Origin: Deltaproteobacteria bacterium
Lineage (GTDB): Bacteria > Desulfobacterota > Desulfobulbia > Desulfobulbales > Desulfocapsaceae
DNA length: 64,000 nucleotides
Assembly: GCA_002747825.1 (NCBI GenBank)
Contig: PDQQ01000011.1
Coordinates: 62,001 to 126,000 of the forward strand
Direction of reading: 5' to 3'
In this document: positions 3,037 to 17,564 of the stretch, piece after piece
Position numbering within the stretch: the first letter of the stretch is position 1
Layout of the letters: the number at the start of each line of letters is the position of its first letter
Position numbers and translations under genes: made by a program
Notes under the pieces: model-generated
Seen by the model: only the letters and a program-made list of their open reading frames with translations
Told to the model about the DNA's origin: nothing
Database searches by the model: none

Positions 3037-3313
3037 AATATTTCTCCTTTTTTACTTAATTACAATGTGTTATATATGATACATGACCGAACAATGCTTT
3101 CGGACAATGCTCTCTATACATGACTGAACCTTAATCTATTTACGGTCAGGTGTCAGCCAAAAAACAATGCCGTGTCTGGTAAGGAGTTAATGCGTTGAAG
3201 ACCTGCAAAAAACAGTTTTTCAAAAGCTCTCCCGGGTGATTTCTGGTCAATACGGAGGCTTTGTGCAGAAGGGCGATGGAAATTATGATACCAGAGTTTA
3301 TGAAATATGCCGC

Positions 3314-3546
3314 TTAGCCCGGATATTTCATAAACATTGTGTCAATTTTTTAAAAATTGCTGATATTCCAATATACTACATGGGAAACATTACAGTTTTA
3401 CAATATCCAAAGTGTTCACCAAAGGTCAGTCCATGCGGCACCATCTTCTTTACGTACTTTTGCAGTAAATAGAGTTTACTCTTACGTAATGCAAAAAAAA
3501 TCGAACCTGACACCGCCTAAACTGATGAAATATCCGGGTTAGCCCG
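3314..3546. repeat. MITE-like palindromic repeat, copy 1
   Basis: A sequence of about 230 bp that recurs at 15796-16024, roughly 90 % identical by eye and including an identical stretch of about 50 bp in the middle. Its ends are inverted repeats: CCCGGATATTTCAT on the left and ATGAAATATCCGGG on the right. Internal palindromes are kept in both copies (CAATTTTTTAAAAATTG near the left end, AGTAAA-n5-TTTACT near the right). It encodes no transposase. A non-autonomous mobile element or a transcribed hairpin repeat is the simplest reading. Its right end overlaps the last codons and the stop of kamA. Confidence 0.75.
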
Positions 3547-4591
3547 GATCGACTGGTTCCGGGTAGCTGCATTTTTTGCCAAGGTAGTTGTTAAAACAGA
3601 GACTTGAGTCTGTTGATTCGGTTATAAACTGCGGGGTAAGAGGAATTTTTCCCATTCCTCCGGGGGCGTCGAGGGCCAGGGTCGGAATGGCCATCCCCGA
3701 GAGATGTCCGTACAGCCCCCTCATAAGCTCGATTCCGGTCTTTGTCTTTGTGCGAAAATGGTCGACTCCGTAGGTTGTATCGCTCTGAAAGAGATAATAA
3801 GGCTTGACCCGCATAAAAAGCAGTTTCTGCATCAGCTCTTTCAGCACGGCAAGATCGTCGTTGATCCCTTTGAGAAGAACGGTTTGTGAACCCAGTGGTA
3901 TTCCCGCATTGGCCAGTAAAGCGCAGGCCCGTTCAGCCTCGGGGGTAATTTCTTTGGGGTGGTTGAAATGCGTATTGATAAAGAGGGGATGGTGTCTTTT
4001 CAGGATGTCGACCAGCCCCTCAGTGACACGCATCGGCAGGGTTGAAGGAATACGGGTTCCAATGCGAATAATTTTAACAGACGGAATGGAGCGCAGATTA
4101 TATAAGATCTCATCAATTTGATTATCTTCAAGAAGCAGAGGATCTCCACCTGAGACCAGGACATCAGAGACTTCCGGGTGCTTTCTGATATAATCGTAGG
4201 CTTGAGCGAGCCTGTTCGGGCCAGTCTTGAACTGACTCTTTCCGACCTTTCTCTTTCTTGTGCAGAAGCGGCAGTAGACGGCACATTGGTTGCAGACCAG
4301 CAGCAGGACACGGTTGGGATATTTATGCACCAGGTTCGGCACCGGACTGAGCTGCTCTTCGGCCAGAGGATCCGGAGTGCATACCCTGTCTTCAAGCTCC
4401 AGGGTGTCAGGGATGCATTGTCTTGCTATAGGATCTTTCCTGGTCTCTATAAGTCCATAGAAATAAGGATTTATACGCATAGGGAAAATCTTGGTTACCG
4501 CAGCCAGAGGGCCAGTATCGCCAGCTATCTTTGGGCCCAGCTGGTCTGGCGCTGTAATGCTTTTCCGCAATATTTTCTTCCAGGTTTCCAT
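3539..4591 (-). CDS. kamA: KamA-family radical-SAM aminomutase, probably lysine 2,3-aminomutase
   Basis: This family uses a 4Fe-4S cluster, S-adenosylmethionine and PLP to move an alpha-amino group to the beta carbon. The cluster motif is CAVYCRFC (about residues 103-110). The PLP lysine is in LDAPGGMGK. The Asp in FQSD and the Asp in LDAPGG match the two acidic residues that hold the lysine side-chain amine in lysine 2,3-aminomutase, which favours lysine over glutamate. At 350 residues it is shorter than clostridial KamA, lacking the Cys-rich tail after the 'YSEP' region, and so is close to EpmB in length. The last residues (VDPG) and TAA stop lie in the repeat element. No ablB acetyltransferase or EF-P gene is adjacent. 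There is no good Shine-Dalgarno at the ATG, so the start is less certain. Confidence 0.85.
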   Translation of the reverse strand: METWKKILRKSITAPDQLGPKIAGDTGPLAAVTKIFPMRINPYFYGLIETRKDPIARQCIPDTLELEDRVCTPDPLAEEQLSPVPNLVHKYPNRVLLLVCNQCAVYCRFCTRKRKVGKSQFKTGPNRLAQAYDYIRKHPEVSDVLVSGGDPLLLEDNQIDEILYNLRSIPSVKIIRIGTRIPSTLPMRVTEGLVDILKRHHPLFINTHFNHPKEITPEAERACALLANAGIPLGSQTVLLKGINDDLAVLKELMQKLLFMRVKPYYLFQSDTTYGVDHFRTKTKTGIELMRGLYGHLSGMAIPTLALDAPGGMGKIPLTPQFITESTDSSLCFNNYLGKKCSYPEPVDPG

Positions 4592-15252: not shown

Positions 15253-15789
15253 ATGCAATTGTTCAAGGGCTTCAGCAGGTGGTTACGGTATTATCTGATT
15301 CGCCTTAAACGATTGCAGGGCAGCCCACAGTCTCTGGCCGGTGGAGTCGCCATTGGTGTGCTCATCGGCCTGTCGCCGACAATGCCGTTTCATACCATCC
15401 TTATATTTCTTCTTGCTTTTCTAACGCGCACCTCGTTTATGAGTGCTTTGGTGGTAAGTTATATCGTATGTAATCCAATTACCGTTCTTCCTCTCTACTC
15501 TCTTTCGATCATTTTGGGAAATGCCCTCACACCGTACAGGATTGATGCAGGGACATTGAATATGCTTGTATCGACGGTGAGCAAGGGAAGCCTTTCACAA
15601 TCGTTTGCGCTCCTTTCTTCGATGGGGCAGGAGAGTGTCATCGTATTGCTGGCTGGAGGCTTCGCTTTTTCCCTGCCCTGTTCAGTGCTATGTTATGCCT
15701 TGGCTCTGTGGTTCTTTTCCTGGCGGGAAAAGAAAAAAAGAAAGAGCCATGCGTCTCAAAAAAGCAATCTTACAGAGAGGTGCCGCTGA
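15253..15789 (+). CDS. DUF2062 membrane protein
   Basis: Small inner-membrane protein of 178 residues with a basic N-terminus, then about three hydrophobic segments. The family signature is visible in GGVAIGVLIGLSPTMPFHTIL and IVCNPITVLPLYS. Its function is not known. It directly follows tsaD (6-bp gap), suggesting co-transcription. The C-terminus is very basic (REKKKRKSHASQKS). The gene ends just 7 bp before copy 2 of the palindromic repeat, so the repeat may sit in its 3' UTR. Confidence 0.85.
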   Translation: MQLFKGFSRWLRYYLIRLKRLQGSPQSLAGGVAIGVLIGLSPTMPFHTILIFLLAFLTRTSFMSALVVSYIVCNPITVLPLYSLSIILGNALTPYRIDAGTLNMLVSTVSKGSLSQSFALLSSMGQESVIVLLAGGFAFSLPCSVLCYALALWFFSWREKKKRKSHASQKSNLTERCR

Positions 15790-15795
15790 TTGCTC

Positions 15796-16024
15796 TAATC
15801 CGGATATTTCATGAACATTGTGTCAAATTTTTAAAAATTGCTGATATTCCAATATACTACACGGAGAAAATTACAGTTTTACAATATCCAAAGTGTTCAC
15901 CAAAGGTCAGTCCATGCGGCGCCATCTTCTTCAGTATTTTTGCAGTAAATATAGTTTACTATTACTTAATACAAAAAACTTCGAACCTGACACCACCTGA
16001 ACTGATGAAATATCCGGGCTAAGC
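15796..16024. repeat. MITE-like palindromic repeat, copy 2
   Basis: Second copy of the repeat at 3314-3546, in the same orientation. Left end CCGGATATTTCAT and right end ATGAAATATCCGG are inverted repeats. Two substitutions in the internal palindrome (CAAATTTTTAAAAATTG here, CAATTTTTTAAAAATTG in copy 1) keep an overall palindromic form. It lies between the DUF2062 gene and the 3' end of cbiK, and has no transposase. The frame at 15690-16022 runs through it but belongs to no recognisable protein. Confidence 0.75.
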
Positions 16025-16128: not shown

Positions 16129-17016
16129 TTACTTGAAGTGACTCAGCGGCTCAGCCAGATGGTCGACCCAGATATCGGTAAACTGATCAAATTCTGCAGT
16201 CCCTTTGAGGATGGTTTCGCAGTTGTATCCCGCCTTGGTCAGAATGTTTTTCCAGGAATCCTCTTCATCTCCTGCCATATCGTTTTTGGCATGGTCTCCA
16301 GCAACGGACATAAACGGCAGGAGATAAACCTTTTTGACCCCTCTCTTTTTCAGAAGAGACTGAATGAGTTCAAGATCAGGATAACCTTCAACGGTACCGA
16401 TCAGAACATTTGGATCTTCAAGCTGTACCTGAAAATTCAGGGCCGCGTAAAAGCCATTGGAGGGGTGATGGGTTCCATGTCCCATGAAAACTACGGCTTC
16501 GTCTTTTTGCCTCTCTTTGGGGAGGACCGCAAAGAGGGCATCAACGGCCTTTTTCATGTCTTCTTGAGTGCCAAGAAGAGGATAGCCGAGAAGAATGGAT
16601 TGAAATGCTCCCATGATCCTGAATGAACTGACAATCCTCGCCAAATCGTGAAACTCGGCACCTCCGATGGTGTGCAGGGATTGAACCGCGACATGGGTAA
16701 AGCCGTCATCACTCATCTTTGCCAGTGCTACCTGCGGAGAGTCGAGTTGTTTCCCTTGCCCGGCCAGTTTTTTTCGTATGATATGAGAAGTGAATGCCCA
16801 GCGTACCGGGATATCGGGATAGGTGCCCTTGACTTTTTGATCGATATTTTCAAAGGAAATCTGGGCACTCTCTTCACTTGAACCAAAGGCGACCAGTAGA
16901 ATACCGACCTTTTTGTCGGCTGGATCGCCATGCTGGCTCCCGGCGAAGCTGATACCTGCCGAAAAGACGAAGGTCAGAATACAGCAGAAAACCACAATAC
17001 GTTGACGTTTGATCAT
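16129..17016 (-). CDS. cbiK: Periplasmic-type sirohydrochlorin cobaltochelatase
   Basis: CbiK inserts cobalt (or iron) into sirohydrochlorin on the anaerobic B12/siroheme route. The protein begins with a clear signal peptide (IVVFCCILTFVFSAGISFAG), as in the periplasmic CbiK-P of Desulfovibrio rather than the cytosolic form. The chelatase core follows: VGILLVAFGSSE, catalytic-type His in HTIGGAEFHDL and FMGHGTHHPSNG. The track ORF starts at 17190 inside the riboswitch; ATG 17016 with AAGGAG 6 nt upstream is the true start (295 residues). The gene is single and preceded by a cobalamin riboswitch and attenuator. Confidence 0.93.
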   Translation of the reverse strand: MIKRQRIVVFCCILTFVFSAGISFAGSQHGDPADKKVGILLVAFGSSEESAQISFENIDQKVKGTYPDIPVRWAFTSHIIRKKLAGQGKQLDSPQVALAKMSDDGFTHVAVQSLHTIGGAEFHDLARIVSSFRIMGAFQSILLGYPLLGTQEDMKKAVDALFAVLPKERQKDEAVVFMGHGTHHPSNGFYAALNFQVQLEDPNVLIGTVEGYPDLELIQSLLKKRGVKKVYLLPFMSVAGDHAKNDMAGDEEDSWKNILTKAGYNCETILKGTAEFDQFTDIWVDHLAEPLSHFK

Positions 17017-17054
17017 TTTCTTCTCCTTGCTAAGAGCGTTTTCCTGGCCCGAAA

Positions 17055-17093
17055 ACAAAAAATCCCCGGACCAAATGAAATTGACCCAGGGAT
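17055..17093 (-). terminator. Intrinsic terminator in the cbiK leader (riboswitch expression platform)
   Basis: On the minus strand ATCCCTGGGTC pairs, with G-U pairs, along all 11 positions with GGTCCGGGGAT, followed by TTTTTTG. It lies between the cobalamin aptamer and the cbiK ribosome-binding site. A GGACC at about 17129-17133 on the same strand could pair with GGTCC of the terminator, giving a possible antiterminator. B12-dependent premature termination is therefore inferred. Confidence 0.75.
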
Positions 17094-17152
17094 GCCCTTG
17101 TTCCCTCGTATCGTAATACAGCAACCCCGGTCCACGAGAGCGCTGAAAAACC

Positions 17153-17320
17153 TTTTCAGGCAGGTCTTCTGACTTCCGGCGTACAATCATCTTCCACTGC
17201 GCCTTCCCGATATTTTCCTATCAGTGGCCTGTTTGCAGTGTTTCGCGCCAGTTACAGCGGCGGGCCCGTCCCGGATTTACACCGGGTTCCCTTTTCATCC
17301 ACATTTATGGAACCTGAAAA
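17153..17320 (-). promoter_or_regulatory. Cobalamin riboswitch (AdoCbl-class aptamer)
   Basis: Read on the minus strand, the consensus elements occur in order: GGGAACCCGGTGTAAATCCG, ACGGGCCCGCCGCTGTAA, GCCACTG, GGGAAGGC, and the B12 box CCGGAAGTCAGAAGACCTGCC. The closing stem P1 is TTTTCAGG / CCTGAAAA, which sets the limits. It lies 137 nt upstream of cbiK with a terminator in between. In this class, binding of a cobalamin normally turns expression off. Confidence 0.95.
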
Positions 17321-17564
17321 CAGCGCAATCTTTACAGAAGAACGGGGTACTGTCAACAGAATTTGTGGTTGCGCTCCAGTCTTTTTCTTTGAATTTTCTT
17401 AAAATATCTGGTGGGTTGTATACAGCACATCCCTTCGGAGGGCGGGACAATTGCGCAGTGAAAGAGCTGTGGTGCCGTTGTTCTGCTTGTGGTGAGTAAG
17501 CCCGCCTGCTGAAACGTTGTCCTGCAAAGCCTCGGGCCTTCCTCCGCTTCTTGCGGGGCGTTGT

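Follow-up and report, generated by a model that had tools for sequence, protein, structure and literature searches.

The repeat at positions 3318–3538 of the 64,000-nucleotide stretch analysed here (the window) is a MITE: it has many dispersed copies, terminal inverted repeats shared with insertion sequences (IS), target-site duplications (TSDs), and no transposase gene. It is probably moved in trans by an IS1380-family transposase encoded elsewhere in the genome. The reading that best joins our results, to which we assign a probability of roughly 0.75, is that of a Desulfobulbales MITE which is moved in trans by IS1380, inserts tolerably at stop codons, and has a minus-strand fold maintained in the lineage of the element. 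A sequence-only reading of the same DNA had offered a non-autonomous mobile element or a structured RNA repeat; both descriptions are supported at once, the former by dispersed copies, ends, TSDs, the link to IS1380, and orthologous gene ends of relatives that are free of the element, the latter by covariation and strand-specific wobble pairs.

Pairwise alignment of the two copies in the window, TSDs counted in, gives 206 identical positions out of 229. The repeat of about 230 bp and roughly 90% identity that had been proposed at 3314–3546 is thus real, although its end point lies 4 nt too far. Its inverted-repeat ends are perfect over 14 bp in copy 1, neither window copy contains a transposase, as had been stated, and the target duplications of both copies are 4 bp long and of the YTAR type. 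The features are as follows.

3314–3317, no strand: left TSD of copy 1, TTAG (sequence, alignment of this genome's copies, TSD survey).
3318–3538, minus strand (the strand with the conserved fold): MITE copy 1, 221 bp, delimited by sharp common ends in the alignment of this genome's copies and by a covariance model match on the minus strand (L001).
3318–3331, plus strand: left terminal inverted repeat of copy 1, CCCGGATATTTCAT, one arm of stem P1.
3332–3417, minus strand: hairpin P2, arms 3332–3350 and 3399–3417; pairing in 87% of cells and double changes at 8 pairs, poorly formed in this genome's own copies.
3418–3426, minus strand: 3-bp hairpin P3, ACC-AAA-GGT, from the RNAalifold structure.
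3427–3524, minus strand: long hairpin P4/P5, in the paired right half of the element, with P4 at 3427–3448 and 3503–3524 and P5 at 3452–3474 and 3479–3500.
3525–3538, minus strand: right terminal inverted repeat of copy 1, the other arm of P1.
3539–3542, no strand: right TSD of copy 1, TTAG; read as CTAA on the minus strand, it gives the kamA-like gene its stop, TAA.
3539–4591, minus strand: kamA/EpmB-like lysine 2,3-aminomutase gene (Pfam LAM_C and Radical_SAM), a host gene outside the element whose native stop is the insertion site of copy 1.
15795–15798, no strand: left TSD of copy 2, CTAA (sequence, alignment of this genome's copies, TSD survey).
15799–16018, minus strand: MITE copy 2, 220 bp (alignment and covariance model match, L014).
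16019–16022, no strand: right TSD of copy 2, CTAA (same three sources).

The flanks of the copy 1 insertion site (3300–3317 and 3539–3555) are themselves end-like, reading ATGAAATATGCCGC-TTAG and TTAG-CCCGGATCGACTGG, which could reflect an older nested element or chance. Copy 2 lies inside an open frame (15690–16022), yet on inspection indels and stops separate the copies and their relatives, so there is no conserved reading frame and a coding function was rejected. Farther along, a cobalamin riboswitch (Rfam RF00174, 124.5 bits) occupies 17142–17332 on the minus strand, directly upstream of the open reading frame at 16129–17190 on the same strand.

The description of the repeat as two-copy holds inside the window only. 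The genome-wide search that had been suggested, run with a 233-bp query on an assembly of 1.22 Mb that is 57% complete, returned 24 matches, mostly 91–94% identical at full length, and we count about 20 copies, 16 of them full-length or nearly so, plus fragments. When aligned, these copies break off sharply at one shared base pair, beyond which their flanking sequences bear no relation to each other; end conservation is therefore plain. The terminal motif, allowing up to 3 mismatches, occurs 51 times in this genome against 0 for a reversed control, and 246 times against 1 in the relative G028. Relatives from the same family carry copies at 70–78% identity, and the named records with the conserved right-end core are those of Desulfogranum marinum, of a Desulfobulbus MAG, and of a MAG that bears the label Neomarinimicrobiota. 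A right-half covariance model matched at least 5 of 146 genomes of the order, this one included, mostly in several to many copies; the filters were strict, and the figure is thus a lower bound. The spread of the family across genera of the Desulfobulbales, bacteria of the sulfur cycle, is patchy, high-copy, and burst-like, as expected for mobile DNA. The element had no match in PLSDB that would indicate a plasmid origin. The right-end core also occurs in one contig of a viral collection (L327, IMGVR_UViG_3300037069_000924), a possible carrier between genera.

Traces of transposition are frequent. Among 99 elements delimited at both ends, 54 are flanked by identical 4-mers (12 of 17 in this genome, 24 of 31 in G028, and 9 of 11 in the Desulfogranum genome G150), so that matching 4-bp TSDs accompany 36 of the 48 elements of this genome and G028 combined; YTAR stands on both sides of 57 of the 99. 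In G028, a 1.7-kb IS has the same ends as the MITE, CTAG duplications, and a split transposase that belongs to the IS1380 family (NF033539, 223 bits with a cut-off of 180; PF13701). A transposase gene with the same ends had been named as something to look for, and IS1380 copies or remnants with this end type, preceded by YTAR, are present in several relatives (G004, G008, G017, G028, and G160). These IS share with the MITE their terminal inverted repeats and YTAR-type 4-bp duplications, the common sequence amounting to the terminal 14–17 bp only; the MITE differs in having no transposase gene, a length of about 220 bp, and a strongly folded, unrelated interior. Known examples of the IS1380 family are IS1247, ISPme1, and ISEcp1. 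For IS1247, 5-bp duplications have been published (PMC3281130).

Two observations count against an IS1380 helper. A PF13701 search of this assembly gave no match and no complete IS1380 gene; the end of contig C12 and the start of contig C22, however, lie within IS ends, which match those of the G160 IS at 94% and 91% identity, respectively, the C22 one including the first transposase codons, and the complete gene is probably missing from the assembly because the contigs are broken inside the IS. The MITEs of this genome also carry the end variant ATATTTCAT, as opposed to ATTTCTCAT on the IS ends of its contigs; the variant ATATTTCAT does occur on an IS of the congener G004. Taken together, the relatives' IS1380 elements, which match the MITE in their ends and YTAR duplications, and the contigs of this genome that end inside such IS point to a MITE with an IS1380 mover. 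In G028, all three IS1380 copies (L303, L297, and L318/L320) have their transposase split at the same A8 run (GTCGCAAAAAAAACAGCC), the two frames overlapping by about 10 nt, which may point to programmed frameshifting or to a defect passed on by descent. At C2:11877 (L109:2878) and C18:119168 (L117:7169) of this genome, lone ends of the MITE's type lie beside unrelated interiors; they could belong to other families or be remnants.

The element sits at a gene end, as had been noted: the TSD of copy 1 supplies the stop codon of the kamA-like frame. The C-terminal end position of this protein is shared, within one or a few residues, by 11 congeners that have no element there, and the stop is therefore native and was kept by the insertion. 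The element-free kamA ends of orthologues, with the stop in the same position, are 64–68% identical at the DNA level and hence do not give a base-exact empty site. Since TAA or TAG is part of YTAR, an element landing in a stop codon re-creates that codon on each side, and the encoded protein stays whole.

Members of the family in G028 are on stop codons more often than expected, be it by target preference or by survival. The formal test covered this one relative, where several cases are single-ended remnants and some may belong to other families with the same ends; contiguous G028 stretches and the window served as background. Across 800 kb of G028 there are 43 YTAR ends, 11 of which fall on the stop codon of an open reading frame of at least 100 codons; at other non-coding YTAR sites, the same is true of 93 flanks out of 2258 (4.1%; odds ratio 8, p = 1.6e-6). 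The excess persists when only the first 120 nt past stops are considered, a restriction chosen since promoters should matter less there (11 on the stop and 7 beyond versus 94 and 320; p = 7e-4). Over all genomes, 24 of the 99 two-ended elements are in this position, including 6 of 17 in this genome, for which the window background (stop codons at 10 of 61 non-coding YTAR sites) is by itself a weak comparison; none of the 11 Desulfogranum elements is on a stop codon. These stop codons belong to unrelated genes that look complete, among them XerD-, AroE-, and Hsp33-like ones, named by eye from their sequences.

The whole element folds, and strong evidence for this comes from helices with compensatory changes between genera and from strand-specific wobbles. 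The RNAalifold consensus comprises a closing stem P1 formed by the terminal inverted repeats, hairpin P2, the 3-bp hairpin P3, and the long hairpin P4/P5. We left P1 out of the folding evidence because a transposase needs both ends to match. In an alignment of 21 sequences, 89.6% of cells pair, and both sides have changed in 92 cells, compared with 29.7 in column shuffles and 12–20 in slid controls. The right half including P3, read on the minus strand, has 95.6% of its cells paired and 13 pairs with double changes. The fold is that of one strand: the right half contains 98 G-U against 7 A-C cells on the minus strand, a structure derived from the plus strand contains 80 A-C cells (equivalent to minus-strand G-U) against 23 G-U, with 42 against 2 in P4, and the minus strand folds to a lower energy in 20 of the 21 sequences. 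With each of 11 lineages reduced to a single consensus, which keeps copy number from inflating the counts, the minus strand gives 400 Watson–Crick, 43 G-U, 3 A-C, and 22 other cells, and both sides differ in 15 of 43 pairs; this alignment was fitted to the model, which biases its absolute pairing percentages towards structure, whereas alignments A1 and A2 were not. The copies of G160 add little covariation because each has decayed individually. The internal palindromes that differ between the window copies, taken earlier as a hint of selection on folding, are thus real and covary across genera. The element matched none of the Rfam 15 covariance models, the copies scanned have no conserved internal promoter, and neither copy 1 nor L282 contains an intrinsic terminator (a GC-rich hairpin followed by a T run).

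Selection on the fold does not appear to act on resident copies. Private substitutions, those seen in a single copy, are no sparser inside stems than elsewhere, and the ones that preserve pairing number 12 of 25 in this genome (12.2 expected), 22 of 51 in G028 (18.0 expected), and 30 of 139 in G160 (24.9 expected), all small counts. Since private substitutions do not preserve pairing, selection seemingly operates on the propagating lineage: resident copies seem close to neutral, and the fold seems to be kept in the lineage that yields new copies. This favours a role in propagation, or in tolerance at insertion, over a function of each copy for its host. Of the flanking genes, 54 point into the left end and 36 into the right end, and there is no bias toward transcribing the folding strand.

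In the mechanism we propose, an IS1380-family DDE transposase from elsewhere in the genome would recognise the 14-bp ends, move the MITE, and duplicate a 4-bp YTAR target; insertion of this kind into a stop codon would re-form the stop on either side, with the protein unharmed. The minus strand would fold with the terminal repeats as closing stem, a long 5′ hairpin, the 3-bp hairpin, and a 3′ hairpin, and this fold would be maintained as a single-stranded, RNA-like nucleic acid in the transposing lineage, not in each resident copy. We infer that it is RNA that folds in this way and that folding aids the spread or the tolerance of the element. That trans-mobilisation of this IS1380 MITE actually depends on its own single-stranded RNA or strand-specific DNA fold, in combination with a harmless preference for stop codons, is a tentative proposal that we consider rather doubtful.

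Several other explanations have to be weighed against this one. An ordinary MITE, derived from an IS by internal deletion or as a chimera, with palindromes that are a by-product of this origin and covariation that reflects inheritance in a few masters without selection on folding, would fit the facts that folding is common among MITEs (PMC10969869), that the copies within a genome stem from few masters, and that single copies show no constraint on pairing. It is nonetheless unlikely, given that double-sided differences in 15 of 43 pairs are found with a single consensus per lineage, that the slid controls are low, and that neutral decay of a palindrome should produce about equal numbers of G-U and A-C cells instead of 43 and 3. 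Host domestication as a 3′ element, in which the hairpins stabilise mRNA, provide processing sites, or act as terminators, and the usefulness of each copy maintains the fold, appears less probable still. Gene-end and stop-codon sites are frequent, and ERIC at the 3′ ends of Yersinia genes alters transcripts (PMC10969869); such a function is at odds with private substitutions that fail to preserve pairing, with the absence of the terminator pattern from copy 1 and L282, and with a gene direction (54 left versus 36 right) opposite to what the folding strand would need.

Retention of a strand-specific, RNA-like fold at the level of the propagating lineage is also what SINE-like propagation would leave, with a reverse transcriptase copying minus-strand RNA and the resemblance to IS1380 being secondary. 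We hold this to be very improbable, as the symmetric terminal inverted repeats, the fixed 4-bp TSDs, and the IS1380 elements whose ends are identical bear the mark of DDE transposition. Plain duplication of one intergenic region as a segment, which the presence of two similar copies in one window could suggest, has practically no probability left: the roughly 20 copies have flanks unrelated to one another, sharply defined ends in common, and TSDs, which already rules it out, and the family occurs across genera.

The MITE with an IS1380 mover and a conserved fold has partial counterparts elsewhere. ERIC, Correia/NEMIS, and QMITE, as described in a review (PMC10969869), are likewise short, intergenic or at 3′ ends (the latter holding for ERIC), bounded by terminal inverted repeats, and predicted to fold as transcripts; the element described here is set apart from them, by that description and not by alignment, through its IS1380-type ends, strand-preferring covariation between genera, and exact insertion at stop codons. 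BrickBuilt of Porphyromonas gingivalis (PMC4596501) resembles it in its IS-like terminal inverted repeats, an interior able to hold short tandem repeats, and predicted stem-loops, but here a 17-bp repeat is inserted only occasionally, into a single hairpin of copies from relatives. This motif, CGGAGTCTNCGCTTACC, is scattered through many Desulfobulbales genomes, which have as many as about 60 copies; the present assembly has none. It forms 1–4 tandem units within hairpin P5 of some copies, has the opposite orientation and another position in G028 copies, and occurs within an unrelated AT-rich repeat as well; the relatives' loci concerned are L137, L142, L143 (Desulfobulbus MAG), L103, L090 (G028), and L160:10393. 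Stem-loop MITE transcripts and 3′-end ERIC insertions are on record in the MITE and IS1380 literature consulted (PMC10969869, PMC4596501, PMC3281130, and PMC4133298). A limited literature search, covering parts of these sources, returned no description of an IS1380 MITE with covariation between genera, strand-specific wobble, or targeting of stop codons. The novelty of a covarying, stop-targeting IS1380 MITE is accordingly provisional.

Bacterial MITEs are usually regarded as deletion derivatives with an unimportant interior. Here, the interior of a MITE has retained its one-strand fold across many compensatory changes that separate genera, while resident copies are free to decay. An elaborate, RNA-like fold of one strand that is kept despite sequence change is unusual for MITEs, and its retention points to a function in the spreading of the element, not in the host. 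The relation between YTAR and stop codons offers such an element a simple route into compact bacterial genomes without breaking genes.
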